Origin: Rhizobium jaguaris
GTDB taxonomy: Bacteria; Pseudomonadota; Alphaproteobacteria; Rhizobiales; Rhizobiaceae
Direction of reading: 5' to 3'
NCBI RefSeq assembly: GCF_003627755.1
Contig: NZ_CP032695.1
Location: 1,736,001 to 1,800,000 of the forward strand
DNA length: 64,000 bases
Part shown: positions 20,935-63,056 of the stretch, piece by piece
Numbering within the stretch: the first letter of the stretch is position 1
Layout: each line of letters begins with the position of its first letter
Translations under genes and position numbers: made by a program
The notes under the pieces: generated by a model
Databases searched by the model: none
What the model saw: the letters and a program-made list of their open reading frames with translations, nothing else
Told to the model about the DNA's origin: nothing

Positions 20935-21672
20935 ATGCCAGCCAGCGGTCTTCCGGAAAATTCGACCTACGCCCTGGAGAAACTCCGGGGTCTGTTGGGC
21001 TCTGACAACCTGGAACCAGATGGCAAGCTGCCGACCGAGCGCGCGCTTTCGGATATGTTCGGCGTTAGCCGCCGCGCTATCAGACGGGCCTTGGAAGTGC
21101 TGGAAGCGGAAGGCCGCATCTGGCGGCGCCAGGGATCGGGCACCTATGCCGGCCAGCGCCCGGACGACTGGAGCCAGCACGTCGGTTCGCTGATTGCCGG
21201 TACCAATCTGATGGAAATCATGGAAGTGCGCCTGCGCGTCGAGCCGCAGCTCGCGCAACTCGCGGCGATGCGCGCCAAGCCCGATGATATCGACCGCATG
21301 TACGAGCTGACGAAAAAGATCTTCGCCAGCGGCGATGCAGATAGCCGCGAACTCTGGGACGGTGCACTGCATCGCCTGATCGCACAGAGCGCCGGCAATC
21401 AGTTCTTTCTGACGATCTTCGATGTCATCAACCATGTCCGTCAGGACGAGGCATGGCAAACCATTCGCGAATTGGCCCGCAACATCAACAGGACACGCCC
21501 GGTAACCTACGCGCAACACGTGGCGATCATCGACGCGATCGCGGCCCGCGATCCAATGAAAGCCGCCGAAGCCATGCGCCAGCATCTGCTGGTGCTGCAG
21601 GAAAGCCTGATTCGCGTCACCTCGCTCGACGCTCAGCATCCACAGAAAGAACTGGCTGACGAGTTGGAATGA
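20935..21672 (+). CDS. GntR-family regulator, FCD subfamily
   Basis: 245 residues. The winged helix spans about 11-73 (PTERALSDMFGVSRRAIRRALEVLEAEGRIWRRQGSGTYAG), and the FCD domain runs from about 85 to 225 (LRVEPQLAQLAAMRA, LHRLIAQSAGNQFF). It lies 87 bases upstream of the SBP gene at 21760 in the same direction and is the natural regulator of the 21760-29643 operon. Its own start overlaps the FadR-like site at 20913-20925. The effector is unknown; peptides or amino acids are suggested only by context. Confidence 0.92.
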   Translation: MPASGLPENSTYALEKLRGLLGSDNLEPDGKLPTERALSDMFGVSRRAIRRALEVLEAEGRIWRRQGSGTYAGQRPDDWSQHVGSLIAGTNLMEIMEVRLRVEPQLAQLAAMRAKPDDIDRMYELTKKIFASGDADSRELWDGALHRLIAQSAGNQFFLTIFDVINHVRQDEAWQTIRELARNINRTRPVTYAQHVAIIDAIAARDPMKAAEAMRQHLLVLQESLIRVTSLDAQHPQKELADELE

Positions 21673-21759
21673 TCATTGGCACCTCTGTGCCGAAACTGAC
21701 GACCGGAGAGGAAACCGGCCGAGAATGCATTGAAAACAAAATGATAACAGGAGAACCTC

Positions 21760-23268
21760 ATGAAGATCGCCAAATTCCTGACATCGCTGGCCGTCGGAAC
21801 TTTGATCGCGCTGCCGGCTTTTGCTGTTGAACTGAAGATCGGCCTGCAGGACGATGCCGACGTGCTGGATCCAGCGCAATCACGCACGTTTGTCGGCCGC
21901 ATCGTCTACACCGCGCTCTGCGACAAGCTTGTCGACGTGACGCCGGACCTCAAATTCGTGCCGCAGCTCGCCACCTCGTGGAAATGGTCAGCGGACGGCA
22001 AGCAACTGACGATGGAACTGCGCCAGGGCGTAAAATTCCAGGACGAGACGCCGTTTAATGCGCAGGCCGTGGTAGACACCATCCAACGCAACCAGACGAT
22101 GCCGGAATCGCGCCGCAAGAGCGAACTCTCCTCCGTCGCCAAGGTCGAGGCAACGGGCGAATACGAAGTGACCTTCACGCTGAAGGCACCTGACGTCACG
22201 CTGCTCGCCCAGCTTTCCGATCGTGCCGGCATGATTGTCTCTCCGACGGCTGCCAAGGCTTTGGGCGCGAAGTTCGGCGATCATCCGGTCTGCGCCGGGC
22301 CGTTCAAATTCGTCGAGCGCGTGCAGCAGGACCGCATCGTGCTGGAGAAGTTCCAGGATTACTGGAACAAGGACAATATCTTTGTCGACAAGGTGACCTA
22401 CCTGCCGATCCCCGACACGACGGTGCGCCTCGCTAACCTGCGCTCGGGCGATCTCGACATGATCGAACGTGTAGCCGCATCCGACGTCGGCACCGTCAAG
22501 AGCGATTCCAATCTCGCCTATTCCGATGCGGTCGGGACGGGCTGGCTGGGGATCTACGCCAATATCGGCAACGGCGCGCGCGCCGACAATCCGCTCGGCA
22601 AGGACAAGCGCCTGCGCCAGGCCTTCTCGCTAGCGATCGATCGGGATGCCGCGATGCAGGTGGTCTTCGACGGCACCGGACTTGCCGGCAATCAGCCCTT
22701 CGCGCCGAACAGCCCCTGGTACGACAAGGACATTCCGGTTCCCGCCCGCGATGTCGACAAGGCAAAAGCACTGGTCAAGGCGGCGGGGTACGATCGTGTG
22801 CCGGTCGAAATTGCAGTGGCCAACAATCCGGTCACAATGCAGACGATGCAGATCATCCAGTCCATGGTCGCCGAGGTCGGCTTCGATGTTTCGCTGAAAA
22901 CGACCGAGTTTGCCACGCTGCTCGACGCGCAGACGGCCGGCAACTATCAGCTCAGCCGTTCCGACTGGTCTGGCCGCTCCGATCCCGACGGCAATATCCA
23001 GCAATTCGTTACCACCGGCGCTGGCCTCAACGACTCCAAATACAGCAATCCGGAGGTCGATAAGCTCCTGTTGGAAGCGCGCCAGTCGCAGGACAATGCA
23101 GTCCGAAAGCAGAAATATGACGCCGCCGAAGTGATCATGAATGACGAACTGCCGATCATCTATCTCGGCCACCAGGCATGGATCTGGGCTTACAACAAGA
23201 AGATCACCGGCTTCGTGCCCTCGCCGGACGGCATGATCCGCCTCGTGGGCGTGAAGAAGAGCAGCTAG
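21760..23268 (+). CDS. ABC transporter periplasmic binding protein, SBP family 5 (module B)
   Basis: 502 residues. The signal peptide MKIAKFLTSLAVGTLIALPAFA is followed by VELKIGLQDDADVLDPAQS. The core SBP_bac_5 stretch FVPQLATSWKWSADGKQLTM and VCAGPFKFVERVQQDR are evident. AGGAGAACCTC precedes the ATG. It is clearly paralogous to the SBP at 56844: same length, with shared blocks such as LSDRAGMxVSPTAA, IPDxTVRL and TALCDKLVD versus AAMCDKLVD. It loads the permeases at 23346 and 24290, which are powered by the fused ATPase at 27793. Cargo is inferred to be a peptide or conjugate handled by the GGT-like enzyme downstream. Confidence 0.94.
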   Translation: MKIAKFLTSLAVGTLIALPAFAVELKIGLQDDADVLDPAQSRTFVGRIVYTALCDKLVDVTPDLKFVPQLATSWKWSADGKQLTMELRQGVKFQDETPFNAQAVVDTIQRNQTMPESRRKSELSSVAKVEATGEYEVTFTLKAPDVTLLAQLSDRAGMIVSPTAAKALGAKFGDHPVCAGPFKFVERVQQDRIVLEKFQDYWNKDNIFVDKVTYLPIPDTTVRLANLRSGDLDMIERVAASDVGTVKSDSNLAYSDAVGTGWLGIYANIGNGARADNPLGKDKRLRQAFSLAIDRDAAMQVVFDGTGLAGNQPFAPNSPWYDKDIPVPARDVDKAKALVKAAGYDRVPVEIAVANNPVTMQTMQIIQSMVAEVGFDVSLKTTEFATLLDAQTAGNYQLSRSDWSGRSDPDGNIQQFVTTGAGLNDSKYSNPEVDKLLLEARQSQDNAVRKQKYDAAEVIMNDELPIIYLGHQAWIWAYNKKITGFVPSPDGMIRLVGVKKSS

Positions 23269-23277
23269 CGCAAAAGC

Positions 23278-23310
23278 GCCATGCGGAGTGCAGGTTGCGC
23301 TCCGCATGGC
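23278..23310. repeat. Hairpin between binding-protein and permease genes (set 2)
   Basis: GCCATGCGGAG (23278-23288) and CTCCGCATGGC (23300-23310) are exact 11-bp inverted copies with an 11-base loop. The stem starts ten bases after the SBP stop codon and has no T run. It is in the position known from other transporter operons to raise binding-protein mRNA over permease mRNA. Confidence 0.7.
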
Positions 23311-23345
23311 CCTCCCATGATCGATGACGAGGTCAGGATCTGCTC

Positions 23346-24293
23346 ATGTACACCTATATCGGAAAGCGGCTGCTGGTTGCGATACCGACGCTGCTGATCA
23401 TCTCCATCTTCGTTTTCTCCCTGCAGAAACTTCTGCCGGGCGATCCGATCCTGGCGATGGCCGGCGAAGAGCGTGACCCGCAGGTCATCGAGTTCCTTCG
23501 CGAGAAATACCGGTTGAACGATCCGGTGGTGTATCAGTATGGCTATTGGCTGAAGGGTGCTGTCACCGGCGATCTCGGCATTTCGCTGCGCACCAACCAG
23601 CCGGTGTTGACGCTGGTTGCCGAGAAGCTGCCGGTAACGATTCAACTCGCCGTCATGTCGATGATCTTCGCCTTCGTCATCGGCATCCCCATGGGCATAT
23701 TGGCAGCGGTGAAGAAGAATACCGTCATCGACTTCCTCGCCAATATCGTCGCCCTATGCGGATTGTCCGTGCCGAATTTCTGGCTCGGGATCATGCTGAT
23801 CCTGCTGATATCGGTGAAACTTCACTGGCTTCCGGCTTCCGGCTATCAGCCATTCTTCGACGATCCGCTGCGTTCGATCCAGACCATGCTGATGCCGTCC
23901 TTCGTGCTCGGCAATGCGCTCGCCGCCACGCTGATGCGCCACACACGCTCTTCGATGCTGAGCGTGCTCAGCGCCGATTATATCCGCACGGCCCGTGCCA
24001 AGGGCCTTCCGGAAGCTGCCGTCGTTCTCAGCCACTCGTTTCGCAACGCCATCCTGCCGGTTGTCACCGTCAGCGCGCTGCTCTTCGGCGAACTGCTGGC
24101 TGGCGCGGTTCTGACCGAGCAGATCTTCACCATTCCCGGTTTCGGCAAGCTCATCGTCGATGCGGTCTTCAACCGCGACTACGCCGTCGTCCAGGGTGTC
24201 GTGCTCTGCACCGCCGTCGGCTTTATCGGGATGAATCTGATTGCCGATGTTCTTTATGTCCTTCTGAACCCACGTCTGAGGGCCGCCCTATGA
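23346..24293 (+). CDS. Peptide-type ABC transporter permease (DppB-like, module B)
   Basis: 315 residues and six predicted helices. The first helix carries the DppB opening (YIGKRLLVAIPTLLIISIFVFSLQKLLPGDPI). GDLGISLRTNQPVL is the first periplasmic loop, and the EAA loop is DYIRTARAKGLPEAAVVLSHSFRNAILPVVTV. The end contains IFTIPGFGKLIVDAVFNRDYAVVQGVV. The stop overlaps the DppC start by four bases (ATGA at 24290-24293). Its nearest relative in the window is the permease at 55787, which shares long blocks including the GEERDPxVIEFLR region. Confidence 0.94.
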   Translation: MYTYIGKRLLVAIPTLLIISIFVFSLQKLLPGDPILAMAGEERDPQVIEFLREKYRLNDPVVYQYGYWLKGAVTGDLGISLRTNQPVLTLVAEKLPVTIQLAVMSMIFAFVIGIPMGILAAVKKNTVIDFLANIVALCGLSVPNFWLGIMLILLISVKLHWLPASGYQPFFDDPLRSIQTMLMPSFVLGNALAATLMRHTRSSMLSVLSADYIRTARAKGLPEAAVVLSHSFRNAILPVVTVSALLFGELLAGAVLTEQIFTIPGFGKLIVDAVFNRDYAVVQGVVLCTAVGFIGMNLIADVLYVLLNPRLRAAL

Positions 24294-25168
24294 CCGCGAT
24301 CGCGCAGACGTCGGCTGCGGCCGCCCCCGCCAAACGCGCACCGAACCGCGCCTGGCGCAAACTGAAGGCAAACAAGGGGGCGCTGGTCGGCCTCGCCATC
24401 ATCCTTTTCTTTGCGACGCTTGCCATTCTGGCGCCGGTGTTACCGTTGGCCGATCCGGTCGCGACGAGCTGGTCGACGATCCGCAAGGCGCCGTCGGCCG
24501 CCCATTGGCTCGGCACCGACGATATCGGCCGCGACATTCTCTCTCGCATGATCTGGGGCGCGCGGGCATCGCTGATGGCAGGCATCTTTTCCGTCGCTAT
24601 CGCCTTGGCGATCGGCGTACCTTTCGGCCTTATCTCCGGCTATTACGGCGGCTGGATCGATCAGATCGTCTCGCGCATTACCGAAGCCTTCCTGGCGATG
24701 CCCTTTCTTATCACCGCGATCGCGCTCGCCGCCTTTCTTGGGCCGAGCCTGACCAATGCGATGATCGCCATCGGACTTTCGGCAACGCCTGTCTTCGTGC
24801 GCCTGACGCGCGGTCAGGTACTCGCGGTGAAGACGGAAGAATATGTCGAAGGTGCGCGCTCGATCGGCCTGCGCCATTTCAGCATCATCATCCGCTACAT
24901 CCTACCGAACGTTTTCGCACCTATCCTGGTGCAGGGAACGCTCACCATCGCAACAGCGATCATCGCCGAGGCCAGCCTCTCCTTCCTTGGCCTCGGCCAG
25001 CAGCCGCCGGCGCCTAGCTGGGGATCGATGCTCAATGTGGCCAAGAACTACCTGGAGCAGGCGCCCTGGATGGCCATGTGGCCGGGCGCAGCCATTTTTC
25101 TCGTCGTCATCGGTTTCAATTTACTGGGCGATGGCCTGCGCGATGCGCTCGATCCGCGCGAAGCGTGA
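24290..25168 (+). CDS. Peptide-type ABC transporter permease (DppC-like, module B)
   Basis: 292 residues from ATG 24290; the reading frame is open further upstream but only as a shadow of the DppB gene. The cytosolic N tail (APNRAWRKLKANKGALVG) leads into helix 1. The periplasmic HWLGTDDIGRDILSRMIWGARASL motif and EAA loop (YVEGARSIGLRHFSIIIRYILPNVFAPILV) are canonical. The C terminus is LLGDGLRDALDPREA. It pairs with the DppB-like product with which it is translationally coupled. It is followed after 22 bases by the GGT-like gene, so transport and hydrolysis are one transcription unit. Confidence 0.94.
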   Translation: MTAIAQTSAAAAPAKRAPNRAWRKLKANKGALVGLAIILFFATLAILAPVLPLADPVATSWSTIRKAPSAAHWLGTDDIGRDILSRMIWGARASLMAGIFSVAIALAIGVPFGLISGYYGGWIDQIVSRITEAFLAMPFLITAIALAAFLGPSLTNAMIAIGLSATPVFVRLTRGQVLAVKTEEYVEGARSIGLRHFSIIIRYILPNVFAPILVQGTLTIATAIIAEASLSFLGLGQQPPAPSWGSMLNVAKNYLEQAPWMAMWPGAAIFLVVIGFNLLGDGLRDALDPREA

Positions 25169-25190
25169 ATCATCTGAAAGGACTTCTATA

Positions 25191-26978
25191 ATGACCACAT
25201 TTACAACCCGCCCTGAAATCCTCGGCACCTTTGGTGTCGTGACTTCCACACACTGGATCGCCTCAGCGGTCGGCATGGGCATTCTCGAAAAGGGCGGCAA
25301 TGCGTTCGATGCGGCGGTCGCGACCGGCTTCGTTCTGCAGGTCCTCGAGCCGCATCTCTGCGGTCCCGGCGGCGATATGCCGGCGGTGATCTATTCGAAG
25401 AAGAAGGACAAGGTCGAAGTCATCTGTGCTCAGGGAACTGCCCCCGCCGGCGCCACACTCGAGCACTATACGGGCGAAGGCCTGTCGCTGATCCCCGGCG
25501 ACGGCCTGCTCGCAACCGTGGTCCCCGGCTCCTTCGACGGCTGGATGCTGATGCTGCGCGACTACGGCAAGCTCAGCGTCCGCGACGTCCTCGAACCGGC
25601 AATCCACTATGCCGAACACGGACATCCGGTGCTGCCGCGTGTCTCGGCGACCATTGCCGGTCTCGCCGAATTCTATCGCAAGGAGTGGCCGACCTCCTAC
25701 GAGACCTGGCTGCCCGGCGGCTCCGCTCCCGAACCCTGGTCGAACTTCAAGAACCCTGTCCTTGCCGAAACCTGGAAGCGCGTCGTCTCGGAAGCGGAAA
25801 GCAAAAGCGGCCGCGAGGCGCAGATCGAAGCAGCCCGCGACGCCTTTTATCGTGGCTTCGTCGCAGAGGCGATCGATACCTATGTGCGCAAGGCCGAAGT
25901 CGTGGATGCGAGCGGCCAACACCACAAGGGCGTGCTGACGGCCGACGACATGGCCAACTGGTCGGCGACAATCGAAGAGCCGTTGACCTATGATTACCAT
26001 AACTGGACGATCGCCAAGATCGGCCCCTGGGGTCAGGGGCCAGCCTTCCTGCAGACACTGTCGCTGCTAAAGGGTTTCGATCTCAAGGCCATGGACCCGG
26101 CCGGCGCGGATTTCGTCCACACCATCACGGAAGCCATGAAGCTCGCATTCGCTGACCGCGAGGTCTATTACGGCGATCCGAAATTCACCAAGGTGCCGCT
26201 CGATATCCTGTTGTCCGACGCCTATGCCGCGGAACGCCGCAAGCTAATCACCTCGGAGGCTTCTCATTCCCTGCGTCCCGGTAAGCTAGCCGGCTTCGAA
26301 AGCCAGTTTGATCTCACCATGGATATGCTGGATACACCGGAAGCCAAGGCCGGCGCGGTCTACGAGCCGACCATGTCGCACCTGACGGAAAAGCGTGGCG
26401 ATACCGTGCATATCGACGTGATCGACCGCGAAGGCAATATGGTCTCGGTGACGCCTTCGGGCGGCTGGCTGCAGTCCTCGCCGATCATTCCAGGCCTCGG
26501 CTTCTGTCTCAATAGCCGAGCGCAGATGTTCTGGCTGAAGCCGGGCCTGCCTTCGTCGCTCGCTCCCGGCAAGCGGCCGCGCACCACGCTGACGCCATCG
26601 CTTGGCCTTTACCAGGGCCGCCCGACGCTTGCCTTCGGCACGCCCGGCGGCGATCAGCAGGAGCAATGGCAGCTCGCCTTTTTCCTGCGTTATGCCCATC
26701 ACGGCATGAATCTGCAGGAGGCGATCGACCAGCCGCTGTTCCACACCTCGCATTTCCCGAGCTCCTTCTACCCCCGCACCCGCGAGCCCGGCAGCATTAC
26801 GGCGGAGGCCAATTTCAGCGCCGAGATGCTCGATGCACTGCGCAAGAAGGGCCACAAACTGACGGTTGCGCCGGAATGGACGGTCGGCCGGCTGACCGCC
26901 GCGCGGCGCGATGCCAGCGGCCTGCTGCGCGCGGCGGCCACCCCACGTTTGATGCAGGCCTATGCGGTCGGGAGATAA
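25191..26978 (+). CDS. Gamma-glutamyltransferase-family Ntn hydrolase without signal peptide (module B)
   Basis: 595 residues from ATG 25191 after GAAAGGA; the open frame further upstream is a shadow of the permease. The family core GGNAFDAAVATGFVLQVLEPHLCGPGGDM is near the N terminus. The autoprocessing nucleophile is predicted as T405 (GDTVHIDVIDREGNMVS), giving a large subunit of about 404 and a small one of about 191 residues. No signal peptide is present, unlike periplasmic GGT, so it should act in the cytoplasm on imported cargo. Where classical GGT has FREMAP (its Arg binds the glutamyl carboxylate), this protein reads AQGTAP, so a substrate other than gamma-glutamyl peptides is possible. 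Confidence 0.88.
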   Translation: MTTFTTRPEILGTFGVVTSTHWIASAVGMGILEKGGNAFDAAVATGFVLQVLEPHLCGPGGDMPAVIYSKKKDKVEVICAQGTAPAGATLEHYTGEGLSLIPGDGLLATVVPGSFDGWMLMLRDYGKLSVRDVLEPAIHYAEHGHPVLPRVSATIAGLAEFYRKEWPTSYETWLPGGSAPEPWSNFKNPVLAETWKRVVSEAESKSGREAQIEAARDAFYRGFVAEAIDTYVRKAEVVDASGQHHKGVLTADDMANWSATIEEPLTYDYHNWTIAKIGPWGQGPAFLQTLSLLKGFDLKAMDPAGADFVHTITEAMKLAFADREVYYGDPKFTKVPLDILLSDAYAAERRKLITSEASHSLRPGKLAGFESQFDLTMDMLDTPEAKAGAVYEPTMSHLTEKRGDTVHIDVIDREGNMVSVTPSGGWLQSSPIIPGLGFCLNSRAQMFWLKPGLPSSLAPGKRPRTTLTPSLGLYQGRPTLAFGTPGGDQQEQWQLAFFLRYAHHGMNLQEAIDQPLFHTSHFPSSFYPRTREPGSITAEANFSAEMLDALRKKGHKLTVAPEWTVGRLTAARRDASGLLRAAATPRLMQAYAVGR

Positions 26979-26982
26979 GCTC

Positions 26983-27741
26983 ATGACCTGGTCGATCGTC
27001 ACGCGCGAGCCGGAAACCGGCCATCTCGCCATCGCCGTCGCCACCCGCTTTTTCGCGGTCGGCAACATCGTACCGAATATTCGCGGCGGCATTGGCGCCG
27101 TCGCGACGCAGGCGTTCAGCAGCCCGCTTTACGGCATCGATGGTCTGGCGATGCTTGCCGCCGGCCACATGCCGGAGGAAATCATTAGGACATTGACCGC
27201 GCGCGACGAAGGTCGCGAACAGCGCCAGTTCCACATGATCGACAGCAACGGCAACAATGCCGCTTTCACCGGCGCCAAATGCATCGACTGGGCCGGTCAT
27301 CTGATCGACGAAAATGTCTCGGTTGCCGGCAACATGCTGGCCGGTCCGCAGGTCATCGCCAAGAGCCTGTCGACCTTCAAGAAGACCCAGGGCATGCCGC
27401 TCGCCGAGCGGCTGCTCGAAGCCATGCGCGCCGGCGAGGACGCGGGCGGCGACAAACGCGGCAAGCAATCCGCTGCTTTGGTCATCTATCGCGACCAGGA
27501 TTATGCCTGGCTGAACATCCGTGTCGACGACAGCGCCGATCCGCTGACGGAGCTCGAACGGCTCTATGCCGTCGCACAGGAACGCTATCTGCATGTTGCC
27601 GAGACCACGCCCACGCGGCAGAACCCGAGCGGCATGATCGACCGTCGAGAGATCGACGAAAAGATCGCGGCACTGGAGGCCGCAAGGATTGCCGAAGGCC
27701 GCCCATCGGCCTCCTTCGCCACATCGCCGAAGCCGTCATGA
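26983..27741 (+). CDS. DUF1028-family protein
   Basis: 252 residues from ATG 26983, five bases after the GGT stop and preceded by GGGAG. The family pattern is plain: MTWSIVTREPETGHLAIAVATRFFAVGNIVPNIRGGIGAVATQAFSSPLYG, then GNNAAFTGAKCIDWAGH and GNMLAGPQVI, and RGKQSAALVIYR. DUF1028 proteins have no established function. The residue after the initiator Met is Thr-Trp-Ser, reminiscent of N-terminal-nucleophile hydrolases, but processing is not shown. The position between a GGT-like enzyme and the transporter ATPase suggests a second processing step on the same imported compound. No signal peptide is seen. Confidence 0.88.
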   Translation: MTWSIVTREPETGHLAIAVATRFFAVGNIVPNIRGGIGAVATQAFSSPLYGIDGLAMLAAGHMPEEIIRTLTARDEGREQRQFHMIDSNGNNAAFTGAKCIDWAGHLIDENVSVAGNMLAGPQVIAKSLSTFKKTQGMPLAERLLEAMRAGEDAGGDKRGKQSAALVIYRDQDYAWLNIRVDDSADPLTELERLYAVAQERYLHVAETTPTRQNPSGMIDRREIDEKIAALEAARIAEGRPSASFATSPKPS

Positions 27742-27792
27742 GCGGAATCGCGTAATGCCTGATACGATGCGCAAGATCACAAAGGTGAGCCT

Positions 27793-29643
27793 ATGACAAC
27801 CGTTGCCGCTCCGCAGACGAAAGCAGACGCAAAGCCCGTCCTCTCCGTCTCCAACCTGACGACATCGTTCCTTGCCGATGGCGAATGGCGCACGGTGGTG
27901 AAGAACATCTCCTTCGATGTCATGCCAGGCGAGACGGTCGCGATCGTCGGCGAATCCGGCTCCGGCAAGAGCGTCACCTCGCTCTCGATCATGCGACTGC
28001 TCGCCAAGGGCAGCAGCCGCATCGAAGGCTCGATCAAGCTTAACGGTCGCGACATCCTTTCGCTCTCGGACAACGAAATGCGCAAGGTGCGCGGCAAGGA
28101 TGTCGCGATGATCTTCCAGGAGCCGATGACCAGCCTCAATCCGATCTTCACCATCGGCCGGCAGATTTCCGAGGCGCTCACCTGCCACGGCGATATTTCC
28201 AAGGCCGAAGCCAAGGCCGAGACCATCCGCTTGCTCGAAAAAGTGCGTATTCCGAACGCTTCCTCCCGCTTTGACGAATATCCGCATCAGTTTTCCGGCG
28301 GCATGCGCCATCGCGTCATGATCGCGATGGCGCTGGCCTCGCGCCCGAAGCTTTTGATTGCCGACGAACCAACGACGGCACTCGATGTCACCATTCAGGG
28401 ACAAATCCTCGATCTCATCAAGGTTTTGCAGGAAGAGGAAGGCATGTCCGTCCTCTTCATCACCCACGACATGGGCGTCGTGGCGGAAATCTCCGACCGC
28501 ACCATCGTCATGTATCGCGGCGAAGCGGTGGAAACCGGCAACACTGACGATATCTTCCATCGCGGCCAGCACCCCTATACCCGCGCCCTGCTCTCCGCTG
28601 TGCCTCGGCTTGGCTCGATGAAGGAGCAGCCGCAACCGCTGCGCTTCCCGGTCGTCGATGCAAGCACCGGTGAGCGCACGGAACCGACCGCAGTCACCGA
28701 CACGGTCGATCGCGGCAAGACGCCGATCCTGGAAGTGAAGAATCTCGTGACCCGCTTCGCTACCCGAGGTGGGCTTCTCGGCCGCGTAACCGGCGCCATC
28801 CACGCCGTCGAGAACGTCTCCTTCGATCTCGCCCAGGGCGAGACGCTGTCTCTGGTCGGCGAATCCGGCTGCGGTAAATCAACGACCGGACGCTCGATCA
28901 TGCGCCTGATCGACCCCAATGCCGGGGAAGTCCGGCTCGACGGCTACGACGTGATGAAGCTCGACGCGCTCAATCTGCGCCGCATGCGCCGCAGTATCCA
29001 GATGATCTTCCAGGACCCGTTTGCCAGCCTCAATCCGCGCATGACCATTGGCGCCGCTGTCGCTGAGCCCTTTATCGAGCACGGGCTCGGCACCCGCGCC
29101 CAGGCGCGCGAGAAAGCGGCCGACCTGCTGGAGCGTGTCGGGCTGAAGGCGGATATGATGTCGCGCTACCCGCATGAATTTTCCGGCGGCCAGCGTCAGC
29201 GCATCTGCATTGCCCGTGCGCTCGCCCTCGACCCGAAGGTCATCGTGGCAGACGAAAGCGTCTCAGCTCTCGACGTCTCGATCAAGGCGCAGGTCTGCAA
29301 TCTCCTGATGGACCTGCAGCAGAGCCTCAATCTCGCTTATCTCTTCATCTCACACGACATGGCTGTCGTCGAACGCGTGAGCCATCGCGTCGCCGTGATG
29401 TATCTCGGCGAGATCGTCGAGATCGGCCCCCGTGCCTCGGTGTTTGAGAACCCGCAGCATCCCTATACGAAGAAGCTGATGGCGGCTGTCCCGGTGCCGG
29501 ATCCGTCCCGGCGCGGCATCAAGCGCAATCTCGCCGTTGACGAGCTGAAGAGCCCGGTGCGGCCCGTTGGCTATAACCCGCCGGCGCGCCAATTTCGTGA
29601 GGTCGCGAATGGCCATCTGGTGCGGCTGGACGAGGCGGCGTAA
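27793..29643 (+). CDS. Fused double ABC ATPase of a peptide-type transporter (DppD-DppF fusion, module B)
   Basis: 616 residues with two complete ABC domains. Domain 1 has Walker A GESGSGKS (53-60), signature FSGGMRHR and Walker B LLIADEP (about 186-192). Domain 2 has Walker A GESGCGKS (about 356-363), signature FSGGQRQR (about 463) and IVADES. The oligopeptide C-terminal extensions ([26 protein letters not shown]) follow each domain. A single chain can therefore energise the 23346/24290 permease pair. It may also serve the ATPase-less set at 14542-18018. It ends the operon that starts at 21760. Confidence 0.93.
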
Positions 29644-54256: not shown

Positions 54257-54261
54257 TCATC

Positions 54262-54914: not shown

Positions 54915-55790
54915 TCAATCCTGGCGCGGATCGAGCGCATCGTTGAGGCCGTCGCCGAGCAGGTTGAAGCCCATGACCAGCACGATGATCGCCACACCCG
55001 GCCAGATCGGCATCCACGGCGCCTGCTGCAGGAATTGTCGTGCCGTGTCAAGCATCGAACCCCAGGACGGATCCGGTGGGCGCTGGCCAAGGCCGAGGAA
55101 GGCAAGGCTCGCTTCGGCAAGCACCGCCGTCGCCATGGTGATCGTGGCCTGTACGACGACCGGCGCCAGGATATTCGGCATCACGTAGACGCCCATGATC
55201 TTGATATTGGGCACACCCAGCAGGCGCGCCGCGGCAATATAGTCCTCGGTCTTGACGGTCAGCACTTGCCCGCGCGTCAGACGAACGAAGATCGGCATCG
55301 CCGAGATGCCGATGGCGATCATCGCATTTTCGAGACTGGGATTGAGGAAGGTCGCAAAGGCAATCGCGAGCACCAGGAAGGGGCAGGACAGCAACGCATC
55401 CGTGCAGCGGGAAATCACGACATCGACGATACCGCCGAAATAGCCGGAGATCAGGCCGAGCGGCACACCGATGACGATGGCTATCACCACCGAGACGAGA
55501 CCGACAAGCAGCGAAGCGCGTGCACCGAAGATAACGCGAGAGAGGATATCGCGGCCAAGATCGTCGGTGCCGAACCAGTGCAGCGCCGAAGGTGCCTGCC
55601 GGACGGCAAGCCAGCTCGATACGTTCGGCGGAAATGGCGCAATGACGGGCGCGAGGATCGCGACCAGCACGAAGAAAAGAACGATGAGGCCGCCGATGAT
55701 GGCGCTCGGCTGGCTGAGGCAGCGCCTCAGCGCGGATCGGCGATTGCCGGAAGCGGCTGGAATGGCGAGCGTGGCTTCGGTCGTGTTCAT
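54915..55790 (-). CDS. Peptide-type ABC transporter permease (DppC-like, module C)
   Basis: 291 residues. The cytosolic start (ASGNRRSALRRCLSQPSAIIGG) leads to helix 1. The periplasmic loop has LHWFGTDDLGRDILSRVIFGARASL, and the EAA loop YIAAARLLGVPNIKIMGVYVMPNILAPVVV. The end is LLGDGLNDALDPRQD. It is the partner of the DppB-like gene with which it overlaps by four bases (ATGA at 55787-55790). It shares extended blocks with the module B permease at 24290. Terminal gene of the minus-strand part of module C. Confidence 0.94.
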   Translation of the reverse strand: MNTTEATLAIPAASGNRRSALRRCLSQPSAIIGGLIVLFFVLVAILAPVIAPFPPNVSSWLAVRQAPSALHWFGTDDLGRDILSRVIFGARASLLVGLVSVVIAIVIGVPLGLISGYFGGIVDVVISRCTDALLSCPFLVLAIAFATFLNPSLENAMIAIGISAMPIFVRLTRGQVLTVKTEDYIAAARLLGVPNIKIMGVYVMPNILAPVVVQATITMATAVLAEASLAFLGLGQRPPDPSWGSMLDTARQFLQQAPWMPIWPGVAIIVLVMGFNLLGDGLNDALDPRQD

Positions 55791-56728
55791 CCGCGCAACC
55801 TCGGGCTCAGAATGACATAGGCGATATCGGCAAAAAGATTGAGCAGCAGGAACATCGCTGACGAGCAGAGAACGACGGCCTGGACGACCGCATAGTCACG
55901 GCCGAACACGCCGTCGACCACCATCTTGCCGAAGCCAGGGATGCCGAAGACCTGCTCGGTCAGCACCGCGCCGGACAGAAGCTCGCCGAAATGCAGCGAG
56001 CTGACGGTGACCACCGGGATCAAGCCGTTGCGTAACACATGCCGGATAACGACGATGCGCTCCTTCAGGCCCTTGGCACGGGCGGTTCGGACATAATCCT
56101 GCCGTAGCGTCTGCAACATGGAGCTCCGGGTGTGACGCATGACAATCGCGGCAGCCGCCGTTCCCAATACGATGCTCGGCATCAACATATAGCGCAGATT
56201 GTCGAGCGGCGAATCGAACAGACCGACGTACCCCCCCGATGGCAACCAGCCTAGCTTCACCGCAAAGGCGAGGATCAGCATGATGCCGAGCCAGAAGCTC
56301 GGAACAGAAAGACCAGCCAATCCGAGTATACTGACACCGTAATCCACAGGTGTACCACGCTTCAGCGCCGCAATGACACCGGCAGGAATCCCGATGACCA
56401 GCGCAAGGATCATCGCCATGACCGAAAGCTGGATGGTGACCGGCAATTTCTCGAGGATCATCTCGCCGATCGGCAGCTTCGTGCGGATCGACAGGCCGAA
56501 ATCGCCTTGCAGGATGCCCCAGAGCCAATGGACATATTGGGTGTAGAGCGGCTGGTCCAGCATGTATTTATGCCGCAGGAACTCAATGACGGCGGGATCG
56601 CGGTCCTCGCCGGCCAGCGCAATCGCCGGATCGCCGGGCAGAAGCTTCAACAGGCCGAAAACCAGGATCGATACCAGCAATAAGGTTGGAATGGCGATCG
56701 CCAGGCGGCGCAGGATAAAAAGAAACAT
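55787..56728 (-). CDS. Peptide-type ABC transporter permease (DppB-like, module C)
   Basis: 313 residues. The opening FILRRLAIAIPTLLLVSILVFGLLKLLPGDPAIALAGEDRDPAVIEFLR parallels the module B permease (LQKLLPGDPILAMAGEERDPQVIEFLR). The EAA loop DYVRTARAKGLKERIVVIRHVLRNGLIPVVTV and the ending VFGIPGFGKMVVDGVFGRDYAVVQAVV are canonical. It forms a channel with the DppC-like product. The gap to the SBP gene holds a perfect 11-bp hairpin and a second palindromic element. Confidence 0.94.
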   Translation of the reverse strand: MFLFILRRLAIAIPTLLLVSILVFGLLKLLPGDPAIALAGEDRDPAVIEFLRHKYMLDQPLYTQYVHWLWGILQGDFGLSIRTKLPIGEMILEKLPVTIQLSVMAMILALVIGIPAGVIAALKRGTPVDYGVSILGLAGLSVPSFWLGIMLILAFAVKLGWLPSGGYVGLFDSPLDNLRYMLMPSIVLGTAAAAIVMRHTRSSMLQTLRQDYVRTARAKGLKERIVVIRHVLRNGLIPVVTVSSLHFGELLSGAVLTEQVFGIPGFGKMVVDGVFGRDYAVVQAVVLCSSAMFLLLNLFADIAYVILSPRLRG

Positions 56729-56742
56729 GGCTTTTCTCTTGC

Positions 56743-56789: not shown

Positions 56790-56801
56790 AAACCGAAAAA
56801 C

Positions 56802-56828: not shown

Positions 56829-56843
56829 CCAGCGAACGATCGC

Positions 56844-58352
56844 TTACTTGGCAGGCTTTACGCCCTGCACACGCAGGATGCCATCCGGAAAAATGGTAAT
56901 GCCCGTCACATCGGCCCTTGCTCCATAGAACCAATTCGGATGATAGAGCGGAATGGTCGGAAGGTCCGTCAGGTAGATGTCCGTCGCCTTCTCGTAGAGC
57001 TGCCTGCGCGTTGCCTCATCCGATGCCTGACGGGCGGCCACCAGCGTCTTGTCCATCTCCGGGTTCTTGTATTTGTTGACGTTCTGGCTGCCGTCGGAAC
57101 CGAAGAAGGCATAGAGGGTCGGATCCGGATCGGCGCGGCCGCTCCAGTTGCCGATGTAGGCTTGGAAGTCTCCGGCCAGATAGCGCTGTATGGCGGAGGT
57201 CGTCTCAAGCGGCAGCAACTGCACGTCGAAGCCGGCTTCGCTGGCGAGCGCTTGAATGATCTGCGCCACGCGCCCGTCGGTCAGCGAGTTTTCATAGGTA
57301 ATTTCCAGCTTCGGCGCAGCACCGCCGACTTCCGCGATCAGCGCCTTCGCCTTTTCGACATCACGCGCCGGGATCGGGTGCGACTTGCTGTAGAAGGCGC
57401 TCGACGACGGGATCATCTGATTGTCGGGAATGAACTCGCCGTTGAAAGCCACCTGGTTGATGACGTTGCGGTCGAGCGACAGTTCCAGGGCCTTGCGCAG
57501 GCGGGGATCGGTGCCGATCGGCGTCTTGGCCTTCTCGCCATTGCCGACATTGATCATCAGATGGGAAACAGCAAGACCTGGCGAGGAATGCAGCGCCAAT
57601 TTGTTGTCCGAACGCACGGTAGCAAGGTCCGTCGGCGCGATACGCTCGGCGACTTCGAGATCGCCAGCCTGCAGGCGTGACAGGCGCACGGTGGAATCCG
57701 GAATGATAAGATACTGGATCTCGTCATAGCCGATGGAGTCTGCGTTCCAGTAACCTGCATATTTGTCGAGGGTAATGGAGTCGCGCTGCTTGCGCGCCTT
57801 CAGCATATAGGGACCTGAGCAGACCGGGTTGGTCGCGAACTCGCCGCCCTTTTGCGCAGCCGTCGGCGACACCATCATGCCGGCACGGTCGCTGAGCACG
57901 GAGAGCAGCGGGGCAAACGGCCCCTTCAGATGGAAGATGACGTGGGTCGGATCGACCACTTCGACGGTATCGATCGGCGCAAGCTCGGCCTTGCGTTTCG
58001 AGTCCTTCAGCGTCGTCATGCGTTCGATGTTGAACTTCACGGCGGCAGCGTCGAAGGGCGTGCCATCCTGGAAGGTTACGCCGCTGCGAAGCGTGAAGGT
58101 GACGTCGGTGCCCTTGTCGTTCCACGTCCAGGCGGTCGCGAGCTGCGGCACGATCTCGAGATTGGCGTTGATATCAACAAGCTTGTCGCACATGGCGGCA
58201 AAAACGATGCGGCCGGTATAGGTGCCGCTTGCCGCGGGATCGAGCGAATCCGGATCATCTTGAAGTCCAACGCGCAATGTTGCCGCATGCGCGGATCCAA
58301 TCGTCACGGCCATAGCCGACGCCATCAAAAGCGCCTTGATGGAAGTTCCCAT
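56844..58352 (-). CDS. ABC transporter periplasmic binding protein, SBP family 5 (module C)
   Basis: 502 residues with AAGGAG before the ATG. The signal peptide MGTSIKALLMASAMAVTIGSAHA is followed by ATLRVGLQDDPDSLDPAAS. Landmarks are IVPQLATAWTWNDKGTDVTF, SGVTFQDGTPFDAAAV and VCSGPYMLKARKQRDS. It is a clear paralogue of the 21760 protein with the same length and many shared blocks (CDKLVD, LSDRAGMMVSPTAA, IPDSTVRL). It feeds the permeases of 55787 and 54915. The ROK regulator gene is divergent, 221 bases away. Confidence 0.94.
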   Translation of the reverse strand: MGTSIKALLMASAMAVTIGSAHAATLRVGLQDDPDSLDPAASGTYTGRIVFAAMCDKLVDINANLEIVPQLATAWTWNDKGTDVTFTLRSGVTFQDGTPFDAAAVKFNIERMTTLKDSKRKAELAPIDTVEVVDPTHVIFHLKGPFAPLLSVLSDRAGMMVSPTAAQKGGEFATNPVCSGPYMLKARKQRDSITLDKYAGYWNADSIGYDEIQYLIIPDSTVRLSRLQAGDLEVAERIAPTDLATVRSDNKLALHSSPGLAVSHLMINVGNGEKAKTPIGTDPRLRKALELSLDRNVINQVAFNGEFIPDNQMIPSSSAFYSKSHPIPARDVEKAKALIAEVGGAAPKLEITYENSLTDGRVAQIIQALASEAGFDVQLLPLETTSAIQRYLAGDFQAYIGNWSGRADPDPTLYAFFGSDGSQNVNKYKNPEMDKTLVAARQASDEATRRQLYEKATDIYLTDLPTIPLYHPNWFYGARADVTGITIFPDGILRVQGVKPAK

Positions 58353-58461
58353 AAAATATCTCCTTGTGGCGCCCCCAAAGAGGTCAACCCACCTGCCCAG
58401 ATTTTATACAGTCCTAAGTGATGCATGGTTTTTGGCGATTGTAAAGTATCCTGACTAAATA

Positions 58462-58554
58462 TTTGCTCAAACAATGGTCAGTGATTAAAAATCGACCAAT
58501 TATACCGAAAATGCCTCTTGACGCGCTTCCTTCATTCAGTAGTTTGTTCGCAAA
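58462..58554. promoter_or_regulatory. Divergent promoter with candidate ROK sites
   Basis: Two related short palindromes occur: TTTGCTCAAA (58462-58471) and TTTGTTCGCAAA (58543-58554). CTGAC/GTCAG arms (58451-58455 and 58477-58481) surround the first. A plausible promoter for the ROK gene is TTGACG (58518-58523), 16 bp, TAGTTT (58540-58545). The region is very AT-rich. The TTTGTTC word also appears in the other ROK/SBP promoter at about 18124. Confidence 0.45.
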
Positions 58555-58573
58555 GCTGACAAAAAATTAGGCC

Positions 58574-59776
58574 ATGACAGATATTTCGACATCCGTTCCC
58601 CTTACCCGGCAGATCACATCGCGCACCGTGCTGCGCGCTGTCTTCGAAAATGCCCCAGTATCGCGCGCTGAGCTGGCGCGTCTGACGGGACTGTCGAAGC
58701 AAAGCATGTCCGAGATCGTCCGAGATCTTGAGGATGAGGGCTGGCTGCGCGTAACCGGCCGTACCCAGGGCGCGGTTGGCCGAAGCGCGGTGACCTATGA
58801 ACTGGAGCCGCGGAAGGCCTTCGTCTTTGGCGTCGACATTGGTGGCACCAAGATCCATGCCGCTCTCGCCGATCTTACCGGCGCAATCGTCGGCGAGCTT
58901 ATAGAGAGCACCGATTCACGCGGCGGCGAACGCGTTGTCGACCAGATCGTGCGCGTCCATGACGCGCTGCTCGAAAAGACCGGCATTGCCAAGAAATCCG
59001 TCAAGATGGGGGCAATCGGCATCCCCGGCGCCGTTCATCCGAAGACGCGGCGGCTTACCATGGTGCCGAATATCCCCGGCCTGACGGACTTGGCTTTTGA
59101 AGACGTTCTTCGCGACAGGCTGGGCTATGACATCCTCATCGAGAACGACGTCAACATGGCCGCCAAGGGAGAGCAGTGGCTGGGCAACGGCCGTCGCATC
59201 GACAATTTCGTTTTCGTGGCGCTCGGCACCGGCATCGGCATGGGGATCGTCAATGAGGGCCGCATTGTCCGCGGCGCCCGCGGGGCGGCCGGCGAAATCT
59301 CCACCCTTCCGATCGGGGCCGATCCCTTCGATTCCCGTACCTTCATGGCGGGCGCGCTGGAATCGGCGATCGGCAGCATCGCCATCCGCGGCCGCTACGA
59401 GGCGCTCGGCGGCACACCTGGCCTGACCGTGCGTGAATTGTTCGAGCGCAGGGATGATCCGGCAGCGGGCATGGTGATCGACGAAGTGGCGCGTGTCGTC
59501 GCGACCTCGCTCGTTGCTATCTCCGCGGTCGTCGATCCCGAGGTCGTGATTTTCGGTGGCAGCGTCGGGGCACGGCCCGAATTGGTGGAGCGGATCAGCT
59601 TCTATCTGTCGCGTTGCGTGCCCGTGCCTCTCTCCTGCACCATCAGCCCGCTCGGCAGCCAGGCCGGCCTCTTCGGTGCCATCGCCATCGCGCTCGACCA
59701 GTTTCGCGAGACGCTGTTTGAAATTCCAGGGCGCGCCGATCTCGGCATGGCTTTCCTGGCAGAGAAAACGCCGTAA
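58574..59776 (+). CDS. ROK-family transcriptional regulator
   Basis: 400 residues. Winged helix at about 18-72 (TVLRAVFENAPVSRAELARLTGLSKQSMSEIVRDLEDEGWLRVTG), then a ROK domain with the phosphate motif VDIGGTKIHAAL (about 93-104) and ALGTGIGMGIV. The zinc motif CxCGxxGC, expected after GARGAAGEISTLPIG, is missing: the protein continues ADPFDSRTFMAGALES. This is the reverse of the ROK protein at 18133. It is divergent from the SBP/permease genes and precedes the GGT-like and ATPase genes, so it likely controls all of module C. Confidence 0.93.
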   Translation: MTDISTSVPLTRQITSRTVLRAVFENAPVSRAELARLTGLSKQSMSEIVRDLEDEGWLRVTGRTQGAVGRSAVTYELEPRKAFVFGVDIGGTKIHAALADLTGAIVGELIESTDSRGGERVVDQIVRVHDALLEKTGIAKKSVKMGAIGIPGAVHPKTRRLTMVPNIPGLTDLAFEDVLRDRLGYDILIENDVNMAAKGEQWLGNGRRIDNFVFVALGTGIGMGIVNEGRIVRGARGAAGEISTLPIGADPFDSRTFMAGALESAIGSIAIRGRYEALGGTPGLTVRELFERRDDPAAGMVIDEVARVVATSLVAISAVVDPEVVIFGGSVGARPELVERISFYLSRCVPVPLSCTISPLGSQAGLFGAIAIALDQFRETLFEIPGRADLGMAFLAEKTP

Positions 59777-59837
59777 AACGACATTGAGGCCGCGTGAGTG
59801 ACGCGCAGACAGTAACAGACAGAGGACGTTGAAAGAC

Positions 59838-61427
59838 ATGCAGCAGCGGGATTTTTTCAAGCCGGGCCGGTCGGTCGCGATTTCCGACAGAGGCATGGCG
59901 GCGACCTCGCATCCGCAGGCTACGCTCGCGGCGGTCGATATTCTGCGTGCCGGCGGCAGTGCGGTCGATGCGGCAGTTGCCGCGGTTGCGCTGCAGTCGG
60001 TCATCGATCCGCACATGACCGGTATCGGCGGCGATTGCTTTGCCCTCTATAGCCCTGCCGGCGGTACGCCCGTCTCGCTCAACGGCTCCGGCCGCGCTCC
60101 GCAAAATGCGAAGCTCGATTACTTCCTTCAGAAGGGCTTCACCGCCATTCCCGACGACAGTCCGCATGCGGTCACAGTTCCCGGCGCGGTCGACGCCTGG
60201 TGCCGGCTGATCGGTTCCTATGGTCGTTTCGACATGGGCCGTGTGCTTGCGCCGGCAATCGCAGCCGCCGAAGACGGCTATTGCATTACCCCACGTGTCG
60301 AACTCGACTGGCGCCGCTACAGCGACCGTGTCGCCAAATATCCGGCTGCTGCCGCCTATTTCCTACCGCACGGCCGCGCACCGCGCACCGGCGAGCGCAT
60401 GGCCAACCCTGCCCTCGCCGCGACGCTGAAAGCCATCGCCAAGGACGGCCGCGATGCCTTCTATCGCGGCAAGGTCGCTGAGGAAATTACCCAGGTTCTG
60501 CAGTCGCTTGGCGGATTGCATGAAGAAAGTGATTTCGCCAATTACAAGGCGTTCGAGACCGTGCCGATTTCCGGCAAATACCGTGGCCGGGACCTGTTGG
60601 AATGCCCGCCGAACGGCCAGGGCCTGGCCGCTATCCTGATTACGCGCATTCTCGACGGTTTCGACCTTCGCGATCCCAAGCTGACCGAAGCGGACCGCAT
60701 CCACCTGCTGGCAGAGGCGACAAAGGCGGCTTACGCCAAACGCGACCAGCTCATCAGCGATCCGGATTATCTAACGTTCAGCATCGATGAACTACTGTCC
60801 AACCAGTCGATTGCCGCCATCCGCGCAAAGATCAGCCTGGAACGCGCTGCCGACGCCACGGTATGGGATGGACCAACGCACAAGGACACGGTCTATGTCT
60901 CCGTCGTCGATCGCGACGGCAATGCGATTTCGCTGATCAATTCGGTTTTCTTCGCCTTCGGCAGCGGCATCTATGCGCCGCGCGCCGGCGTGCTGCTGCA
61001 GAATCGCGGCTCCGGCTTCGTCGTCAAAGAAGGTCATCCGAACGCCATTGGCCCCGGCAAGCTACCCTTCCACACCATCATCCCGGCCATGCTGATGGAA
61101 GGTGGCAAGACGCGCATGAGCTTTGGCGTCATGGGCGGTCAATATCAGGCCGTCGGCCACGCTCACATGTTGAGCCAGATCCTCGATCGCGATCTCGATC
61201 CGCAGCAGGCAAGCGACCAGCCGCGCAGCTTCTGCTACGGCGGCAAACTATCGCTGGAACCGACGATCTCCGAAGAGATCAAGCGGGACCTCGAACGCCG
61301 CGGCCATGTCACCGAGTGGGCGGATGAACCGATCGGCGGCGCGCAAGCGATCTTGATCGATCACGAGCGCGGCGTCCTGCTCGGCGCCTCGGACCATCGC
61401 AAGGACGGCATCGCCCTCGGCTGTTGA
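59838..61427 (+). CDS. Gamma-glutamyltransferase-family Ntn hydrolase without signal peptide (module C)
   Basis: 529 residues from ATG 59838 (a TTG lies three codons upstream). The core [30 protein letters not shown] and [11 protein letters not shown] are followed by the predicted nucleophile T351 ([18 protein letters not shown]), which gives subunits of about 350 and 179 residues. The small-subunit motifs [33 protein letters not shown] and [13 protein letters not shown] are of the YwrD-like branch. There is no signal peptide, so the enzyme is cytoplasmic. In place of the FREMAP of classical GGT it has GSGRAP. It follows the ROK gene by 61 bases and precedes the ATPase gene by 18. Confidence 0.9.
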
Positions 61428-61445
61428 GTTTGGGATATTGAAACC

Positions 61446-63056
61446 ATGACGTCTGCTTCCGTTCTCTCCGTCCGCGATTTGACTCTCACGCTCCCCCTGG
61501 GCGGAGACCGGAAATATGCGCTGCAAGGCCTCGGCTTCGACCTGGCAGAGCGGGAAATTCTCTGCATCGTCGGAGAATCCGGCTCTGGGAAATCGCTGTG
61601 TGCCCAGACCATCATGGGGTTGCTTCCCAAGGTGATCGGAATCGAGAAGGGCGAAATCCTGCTGGAGGGCGCCGATATCATCAGCGCGCCGCCACAGGTG
61701 CTGCGGGACCTGCGCGGCAAGCGCGTTTCCATGATCTTCCAGGAGCCGATGACGGCGTTCAATCCTTCGATGCGCATCGGCGATCAGATCGCCGAGGTGT
61801 TTGAAGCGCATGGTTTGCTGACCGAGAAGGAACGGGCCGAGCGAGCCGTGACGCTCGCAACCGAAGTCGGCCTGCCCAATCCCGAGCGTATCGTCCGCTC
61901 CTTCCCTCACCAGCTTTCCGGCGGCCAGCGCCAGCGCGCCATGATCGCCATGGCTCTGGCCTTGGAACCAAAAGTGCTGATTGCCGACGAGCCGACGACG
62001 GCACTCGACGTCACCACCCAGGCGCAGATCCTGCGGCTGATCCGCGACATACAGCAGCGGCGCGGCATGTCCGTGGTCTTCATCACCCATGACTTCGGCG
62101 TTGTGGCCGATATCGCCGACAAGGTGCTGGTCTTGCAGAAAGGTCTGATGGTCGAGCAGGGCACGGCCGAAAGCGTGCTGAAACACCCGACCCAGGACTA
62201 CACCAAGGCGCTGCTCGCCGCCGTCCCTTCGGCAACTCCCCCGGAACGCCCCTCGACCGACGCACGCCCGATCGCTTTTTCCGTCGACAAGCTGTGCAAG
62301 ACCTATGTTTCCGGCGGAGGTTTCCTGCAGCCGAAGCGCCGGACCCAGGCGGTCAACAATGTCAGTTTCGAAATCCGGCGGGGTGAAACGCTGGGCCTGA
62401 TCGGCGAATCCGGTTCAGGCAAATCCACGGTCGCCCGGCTGGTGACGCGGCTGATCGATCCAGACAGCGGCCAGGTGATGCTCGCCGATGACGACTTCAC
62501 CAAGCTCAAAGGCGCCAAACTGCGACAGGCGCGCAAGCGCATCCAGATGGTCTTCCAGGACCCCTTCGCCTCGCTCAACCCGCGCCGCAAGATCGGCCTC
62601 AGCATTGCGGATGGTCCGCTCGCGCACGGCGTCAGCCATGCCGAGGCGTTGCAGGAAGCCCGCCAGCTCTTGACCCTCGTCGGCCTCGATCCGCGCGCCA
62701 TTGATCGTCTGCCACACGAATTTTCCGGCGGCCAACGCCAGCGCATCGGCCTTGCCCGTGCGCTCGCGCTGAAGCCCGATGTTCTCGTCGCTGACGAATC
62801 TGTTTCCGCGCTCGACGTGACCGTGCAGGCGCAGGTGCTGAAGCTGCTGGAAGAGCTGAAAGGCCGCCTCGACCTCGCCATGCTGTTCATCACCCACGAC
62901 CTGCATGTTGCCGCCCAGGTCTGCGACCGCATCGCCGTCATGCGCCGCGGCGAAATTGTGGAACTGAGGCCTGCCGCGGAGCTTATCAACAACCCGCAGC
63001 ATCCCTATACGCGGGAATTGCTGTCGGCGATTCCGGGGCAGACTCTGGCGCATTGA
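61446..63056 (+). CDS. Fused double ABC ATPase of a peptide-type transporter (DppD-DppF fusion, module C)
   Basis: 536 residues, about 80 shorter than the module B enzyme, mainly in the linker. Domain 1: Walker A GESGSGKS (43-50), signature LSGGQRQR and [11 protein letters not shown]. Domain 2: Walker [10 protein letters not shown] (about 319-327), signature FSGGQRQR and [11 protein letters not shown]. The peptide-transporter tail [14 protein letters not shown] is at the C terminus. It should energise the permeases of 54915 and 55787, which are encoded on the other strand, so balanced expression needs the shared divergent promoter. Confidence 0.93.

Follow-up and report, generated by a model that had tools for sequence, protein, structure and literature searches.

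In Staphylococcus aureus, the five-gene GisABCD-Ggt locus encodes a substrate-binding protein (SBP), two permeases, an ATPase, and a cytoplasmic gamma-glutamyltransferase (GGT) that lacks a signal peptide; the published model is import followed by cleavage (PMC10355420). The same paper states that the Gsi importer of Escherichia coli is encoded together with iaaA, which is called an open reading frame of unknown function. Two further reports assign biosynthetic rather than scavenging roles to the actinomycete GGT homologues LmbA and Ant6 (PMC5519988) and describe HpxW of Klebsiella in uric acid degradation as an oxamate amidohydrolase that frees oxalate from oxamate (PMC5270733). Here we analyze two gene modules, designated B and C, in a 64,000-nucleotide stretch of the Rhizobium jaguaris genome (contig NZ_CP032695.1, positions 1,736,001 to 1,800,000; hereafter the window). 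The window lies in C2, a contig of 2.58 Mb, and the genome totals 8.0 Mb. Each module (20935–29643 and 54915–63056 of the window) combines a Dpp-type ATP-binding cassette (ABC) importer with a GGT-family hydrolase of the N-terminal nucleophile (Ntn) superfamily, and GisABCD-Ggt is their nearest known counterpart in way of working.

The importers of modules B and C are sisters, and their hydrolases were recruited from different GGT lineages. In E. coli GGT, whose numbering we use for all pocket residues, R114 and D433 hold the glutamate of the gamma-glutamyl group; this clamp is absent from both hydrolases. We favor, with modest conviction, a reading in which the modules are dedicated scavenging systems that import an oxalyl-type conjugate and then deacylate it in the cytoplasm. 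In the literature searched, which covered few subscription journals, no title or abstract opening among the papers listed dealt with rhizobial GGT-type genes beside Dpp importers, and no paper mentioned DUF1028, the family of an additional protein encoded in module B.

Linkage of one SBP lineage to GGT-family genes

The initial annotation of this DNA had proposed gene-neighborhood analysis as a check on whether the GGT-like genes lie beside these transporters only by chance. We carried it out in both directions. GGT-family genes are present in 56 of 61 genomes of the order. Among the matches listed, 142 full-length genes plus a fifth gene from R. jaguaris gave a set of 143, from which all but three (G035:C274, G036:C19, and G031:C2:898719) were retrieved, leaving 140; 8 partial matches were not included. 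Class borders (a B score of 600, a C score of 400, and, for secreted enzymes, 450 bits to PF01019 plus a hydropathy of 1.4) were chosen after the scores were known. With Dpp parts within 5 kb of the GGT-family gene as the criterion, an importer adjoins 8 of 11 B-type genes, including 8 of 8 with at least 5 kb of flanking sequence on both sides, and 0 of 46 secreted GGT genes (0 of 36 when only genes with full flanks are counted). The corresponding counts are 6 of 41 for the C/YwrD type and 2 of 42 for the remaining GGTs.

The reverse search used the module B SBP as bait, irrespective of any GGT neighbor. In the 61 genomes, 12 SBPs scored at least 412 bits and the next scored 230 bits. A GGT-family gene lies within 5 kb of 11 of the 12 high-scoring SBPs versus 6 of 82 lower-scoring ones, a comparison drawn from the 94 highest-scoring rows among the SBP matches listed (Fisher p 2e-9, ignoring kinship). 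Extending the search to 397 genomes of the phylum returned at least 31 places in 27 genomes; three candidates per genome were scored, and lineage members may therefore have been missed. When distinct high-scoring places were pooled, 36 of 39 had a GGT-family (PF01019) gene within 5 kb, the exceptions being C1:3407259 in R. jaguaris itself, G228:C11, and G404:C6. The SBP gene at C1:3407259 lies 7.5 kb from a secreted GGT gene and adjoins an enolase-superfamily gene followed by a CaiB-type CoA-transferase gene (L314:1992-4472).

Could the GGT-like genes stand near Dpp importers simply because this genome is rich in importers? It does contain 38 SBP_bac_5 genes, and approximately 5.8% of the genome falls within 5 kb of such a gene. 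However, four of its five GGT-family genes adjoin a Dpp-type importer (twice the two modules of the initial annotation), and the chance of four of five GGT genes lying near an SBP gene is about 5e-5. The pooled SBP-first count, the full-flank B-type count, and recurrence in a second phylum likewise oppose this explanation. With the enzyme-first, SBP-first, and positional-probability counts in agreement, we rejected chance adjacency as exceedingly improbable, to the extent that neighbor counts can decide the matter.

An SBP tree was built from rows collected from GGT neighborhoods together with 30 of the 38 R. jaguaris SBPs. The B and C proteins are two of four R. jaguaris SBPs within a set of 31 rows (SH-aLRT 99) that also includes rows from Streptomyces and Amycolatopsis; the 26 other R. 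jaguaris SBPs in the tree fall outside it. Because rows were gathered by GGT neighborhood, the tree itself cannot demonstrate the link to GGT, for which the SBP-first counts are the evidence. Membership in the lineage was assigned by the tree for its own rows and otherwise by the score gap (412 bits versus 230 or less). So defined, the lineage extends across several classes of the phylum Pseudomonadota and into Actinomycetota, where 6 of 80 loci contain a lineage SBP and both permeases within 5 kb and a seventh contains permeases and the ATPase. Roots or other bacteria had been suggested as the source of the substrate. The system is not restricted to roots: marine Rhodobacterales carry relatives on plasmids, and Streptomyces and Amycolatopsis have them too.

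The GGT partners of this single SBP lineage occupy at least three places in a GGT tree of a thinned set of 92 rows (one of which, L298_pl, is the copy beside a Pot-type importer despite its SBPclade label). One is the B clade; the other two lie inside the C/YwrD group, namely the C clade, which also takes in L116 and L301, and L127 at a separate position. In other classes of the same phylum, all four loci read (G259, G298, G354, and G278) have two permease genes followed by a GGT-family gene, the product of which, judged by score and residues, has a lower score to the C enzyme (287–341 bits) and C-type pocket residues. Since one SBP lineage pairs with GGTs from several places in the tree, we infer that the importer kept a GGT-fold partner while that partner was exchanged among GGT lineages.

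Architecture of the modules

All genes of module B lie on the plus strand. A GntR regulator with an FCD ligand-binding domain (20935..21672; PF00392, 56 bits; PF07729, 77 bits) is followed by an exported, 502-residue family 5 SBP (21760..23268; SBP_bac_5, PF00496, 301 bits), which the tree and neighbor tests place in the GGT-associated lineage. Next come a DppB-type permease 1 (23346..24293), recognized by NCBIfam Opp2B/GsiC-type matches, and a DppC-type permease 2 (24290..25168), assigned by frame, start, and spacing, that overlaps permease 1 by 4 bases. The GGT-family Ntn hydrolase (25191..26978; 595 residues; PF01019, 420 bits) is of the type of LmbA2991, a further actinomycete homologue, and has no signal-like segment and a predicted nucleophile at Thr405; it shares 98% identity with a Rhizobium jaguaris protein in public records. 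The DUF1028 gene (26983..27741) and a gene for a 616-residue, GsiA-like fused double ATPase (27793..29643) complete the module. The gaps measure, in order, 87, 77, -4, 22, 4, and 51 bases, and because they span only -4 to 87 bases on one strand, module B is likely a single operon, as had been proposed. Frames and Pfam/NCBIfam matches bear out every part originally listed for it. The exact layout recurs in Rhizobium tumorigenes, and FCD or FadR/GntR regulators repeatedly adjoin B-type genes in other genomes.

Module C consists of two oppositely oriented halves separated by a gap of 221 bases between the SBP and ROK genes, in keeping with the divergent promoter described initially, and all of its expected parts are present. 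The minus strand encodes permease 2 (54915..55790; a Dpp-type match by translation), permease 1 (55787..56728), and an exported, 502-residue family 5 SBP (56844..58352) that shares its lineage with the module B protein in the tree. On the plus strand lie a ROK-family regulator (58574..59776; PF00480, 143 bits, plus a MarR-type helix-turn-helix), a GGT-family Ntn hydrolase (59829..61427; PF01019, 472 bits), and a 536-residue fused double ATPase (61446..63056). The hydrolase gene starts with TTG; its product lacks a signal-like segment and is predicted to use Thr354 as nucleophile within a pocket whose residues are YwrD/HpxW-like. This exact layout, including the ROK gene, recurs in Terrarubrum.

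The modules had been described as paralogous. That holds for the importers, whose common descent is backed by the SBP tree and whose three compared components are 45% (SBP), 62% (permease 1), and 48% (ATPase) identical; it does not hold for the GGT-like enzymes, which share only 30% identity and fall in separate parts of the GGT tree.

The DUF1028 protein of module B (PF06267, 245 bits) was correctly identified at the outset. DUF1028 members begin with Met-Thr in 13 of 13 aligned sequences, the starts being chosen at that Met; for the module B gene, translation could also start upstream, at an in-frame ATG (26962). In fold, a predicted model matches taspase-1 and the proteasome beta subunit. 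An Ntn fold and an N-terminal Thr, Ser, or Cys, the features of the Ntn superfamily, fit DUF1028, which resembles a Thr-Ntn hydrolase made without a propeptide, the predicted nucleophile being Thr2; module B would thus encode a second predicted Ntn hydrolase. Another DUF1028 gene in this genome (L287:1399-3494) lies near frames that, by eye, resemble RidA and flavin monooxygenases.

The two remaining modules of the genome differ in composition. The third (L158; C2:49464) has an FCD regulator and two separate ATPase genes, and the fourth (L175; C2:1953276) has a GntR regulator and a distant GGT relative. In the latter region (L175:5383-14799; C2, approximately 1.95 Mb), a polysaccharide-deacetylase-family gene directly precedes the GGT-like gene. 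We considered the allantoinase PuuE for this neighbor (L175:10389-11336) and claim only family membership because it scores 61 bits against a cut-off of 425. The product of the fifth GGT gene (L051) is a typical secreted GGT that retains the clamp, and no importer lies within 5 kb of this gene.

Upstream of module B, the window contains another Dpp-type set (14542-20776), in which an SBP and two permeases (14542-18075, minus strand) are divergent from ROK and M81 (MlrC-like) genes. The M81 peptidase gene (19331-20776) had been associated with module B. It begins 7 bases past the ROK gene (18133-19323) and is divergent from that SBP/permease set; it therefore more likely belongs with the importer at 14542-18075.

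Pocket residues and relatives of the hydrolases

The catalytic Thr391 is kept in all 140 GGT-family proteins. R114 and D433 are both present in 46 of 46 secreted GGTs versus 0 of 52 B- and C-type enzymes. Instead, 11 of 11 B-type enzymes have Gln114, Arg430, Met433, and Thr463, and 41 of 41 C/YwrD-type enzymes have Ser or Ala114, Arg430, His462, and Thr463, with Gly, Ser, or Cys at position 433. Arg430 and Thr463 are thus common to all 52, and the pocket residues of the 42 remaining GGTs are mixed. Because both enzymes have lost the clamp, the acyl group they remove is probably not gamma-glutamyl, and cleavage of the gamma-glutamyl conjugates initially listed among the substrates is disfavored.

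These residues bear directly on the possibility that the modules are a rhizobial GisABCD-Ggt, which would import glutathione, oxidized glutathione (GSSG), or gamma-glutamyl peptides for cleavage inside the cell. The parts are the same: in B and C, as in S. aureus, Dpp-type importer parts share one locus with a gene for a GGT that (in B and C by hydropathy only) has no signal peptide. The S. aureus system imports GSSG, its cytoplasmic enzyme cuts both reduced glutathione and GSSG, and its ATPase gene is presumed to run divergently from those for the permeases and the SBP (PMC10355420), an arrangement also seen in module C. Its Ggt gene, however, accompanies the permease and SBP genes, whereas that of module C accompanies the ATPase gene, and module B adds DUF1028. 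In substrate, too, the systems probably differ, given the missing gamma-glutamyl-holding residues of B and C (the comparison being with the 46 secreted GGTs). The GsiB and GsiA models are the top NCBIfam matches of the SBPs and ATPases, but the SBPs score 163 and 184 bits against the GsiB cut-off of 594, and the ATPases of B and C score 861 and 507 against the GsiA cut-off of 1077. GsiA is presumably also a fused double ATPase; IaaA, which we take to be an Ntn-type isoaspartyl peptidase, belongs to a different Ntn family from the hydrolases of B and C. The C enzyme exceeds the TIGR00066 cut-off (388.8 versus 357.85 bits) and still lacks the clamp, and the B enzyme falls below it (298.7). Finally, the genome already has its own secreted, clamp-bearing GGT. 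A glutathione-importing role is accordingly unlikely in our view.

Hydropathy supports a cytoplasmic location for both enzymes. The best 14-residue values are 1.16 for B and 0.60 for C, consistent with the reported absence of signal peptides. A value of 1.6 upstream of the domain is reached by 0 of 52 B- and C-type proteins versus 44 of 46 secreted ones, a class itself partly defined by a hydropathy of 1.4 or more. Together with the operon layout of module B and the two-way gene-neighbor link, this supports the earlier suggestion that cleavage follows import.

The closest characterized relative of the B enzyme is LmbA2991, a name that appears in two papers of the literature searched. The two are 51% identical over 381 columns of the N-terminal part and 50% over 595 columns of the fold match, and they agree at all eleven pocket positions listed. 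The B enzyme was modeled with a mean pLDDT of 75 (57–67 for the other four structure models), and this model has its best fold match in LmbA2991 (6J3A, 'Structure of LmbA2991HD'; 6J3I, 'LmbA2991T421A'). The B enzyme also shares the Asp-Thr processing site, the G403-D404-T405 motif being invariant in 17 sequences, and some LmbA2991 orthologues adjoin the importer lineage of B and C. LmbA2991 processes itself between D420 and T421, and its C-C hydrolysis of an alpha-keto side chain is the same as that of Ant6, for which the co-product was identified as oxalic acid (PMC5519988).

The C enzyme resembles HpxW (5HFT) in its small-subunit pocket, with Arg430, a small residue at position 433, His462, and Thr463; the HpxW small subunit has the same Asn-Arg-Gly and Phe-His-Thr motifs. 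The pattern of Arg430, His462, and Thr463 without D433 does not single out HpxW, as it is found in 41 of 41 C/YwrD-type enzymes. The closest solved relative of the C enzyme is 2NLZ (339 bits), which is nearer than HpxW. Since 2NLZ was deposited as a cephalosporin acylase, the modules might instead import and deacylate conjugates of another short dicarboxylic or aromatic acid, such as glutaryl, succinyl, malonyl, or phenylacetyl, as cephalosporin-acylase-like members would, and some B- and C-type genes do adjoin genes for TRAP, tricarboxylate, or MFS transporters. The label of 2NLZ nevertheless comes from its depositors, and the B enzyme matches LmbA2991 at 645 bits, far above its 207 bits with 2NLZ. 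We regard another acyl group as possible but rather less probable than oxalyl.

A scavenging model and its implications

In the model that we favor, a periplasmic SBP would capture a small acyl conjugate, which two Dpp-type permeases and the double ATPase would import intact. The cytoplasmic GGT-family hydrolase, autoprocessed to expose an N-terminal Thr, would then remove the acyl group. A short carboxy-acyl group such as oxalyl is most likely, as in N-oxalyl amino acids, oxamate-type amides, or acylpyruvate-like compounds, because LmbA2991 and HpxW, characterized relatives of both partner lineages, handle an oxalyl group. The products would be oxalate plus an amine or carbon skeleton, and in module B the probable target of the DUF1028 protein is this conjugate or a product of its cleavage. 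The ligands of B and C probably differ within one chemical class, as the hydrolases come from separate GGT lineages and the regulators differ.

Several observations weigh against this model. In the LmbA2991 report, its oxalyl substrate is not native and its own role is called unclear (PMC5519988). The Arg430/Thr463 pattern, which also occurs in 2NLZ and 2I3O as well as all 52 B- and C-type enzymes, may serve any carboxylate. No Dpp importer lies within 5 kb of 35 of 41 C/YwrD-type genes, and 73 of 80 actinobacterial loci have no permease pair within 5 kb, although two of the 80 gave no GGT frame over the cut and some were clipped by contig ends. In R. jaguaris, a search for oxalyl-CoA decarboxylase at E 1e-200 (3 of 18 candidates scored) gave no hit, nor did one for a bicupin oxalate decarboxylase at E 0.001. 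Oxalyl-CoA decarboxylase occurs in 15 of 36 B-positive versus 15 of 361 other genomes (6 of 26 versus 13 of 359 minus one family), an enrichment that genome size and kinship may explain. With this confounding and with neither decarboxylase found in R. jaguaris, oxalate catabolism is weak, mixed support, and we set it aside.

Likewise, no SBP of the lineage lies near 17 of 38 B-type genes, and transporters of other kinds accompany some B-type genes. Plasmid-borne B-type genes lie beside a spermidine/putrescine-type ABC importer in Neorhizobium, MFS genes in Paraburkholderia, and a tricarboxylate SBP gene in a Comamonadaceae strain; a distant B-type gene accompanies TRAP genes on a Skermanella plasmid. 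In Allorhizobium and in Rhizobium sp. NXC14, C-type genes accompany ABC importers of other kinds, and a C-type relative in Shinella adjoins an ABC ATP-binding gene but not a complete importer. Still, the enzyme is found with some uptake system in most annotated loci read, which fits import before cleavage.

Individual loci show further associations. Rhizobium tropici CIAT 899 has both a B-type gene and a C-type relative. On plasmid pRL9b4 of R. leguminosarum (L300:2175-10590), a C-type gene lies behind a BMP-family ABC importer and is divergent from cysteine hydrolase and amidase genes. In Neorhizobium petrolearium (L298:1811-17289), a single stretch contains a pair of GGT-like genes, one of which accompanies a Pot-type importer and the other a Dpp-type importer. 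Genes for TauE/SafE-type exporters recur near clamp-less GGT genes (L294:9821-10675, inside the operon; L296:10564-11406; L302:6392-7216; L307:22-768, approximately 6 kb off; L116:11159-12976), possibly for product export. In Paracoccus, Pseudochrobactrum, and Phyllobacterium, module B is followed at a short distance by a gene for an acetamidase/formamidase (L293:12146-13105, L294:14358-15317, and L304:12385-13329), which in the latter two is accompanied by another ABC importer.

The finding has consequences for annotation. The gamma-glutamyl clamp is missing from 52 of 140 GGT-family proteins of the order sample (the B and C types), and relatives of these are named gamma-glutamyltransferase in public records; operons of this kind should not be labeled glutathione importers. 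The tight, repeated pairing with one SBP lineage makes the substrate question testable, because the ligand of the SBP points to the substrate of the enzyme, and DUF1028 gains a testable mechanism. More speculatively, the SBP lineage of Pseudomonadota and Actinomycetota could constitute a previously undescribed class of oxalyl-conjugate importers (plant N-oxalyl amino acids being one example of such conjugates), each coupled to an interchangeable, clamp-less GGT-fold hydrolase and often to DUF1028. If this tentative proposal is true, 'GGTs' of the LmbA2991 and YwrD types would gain a native role.

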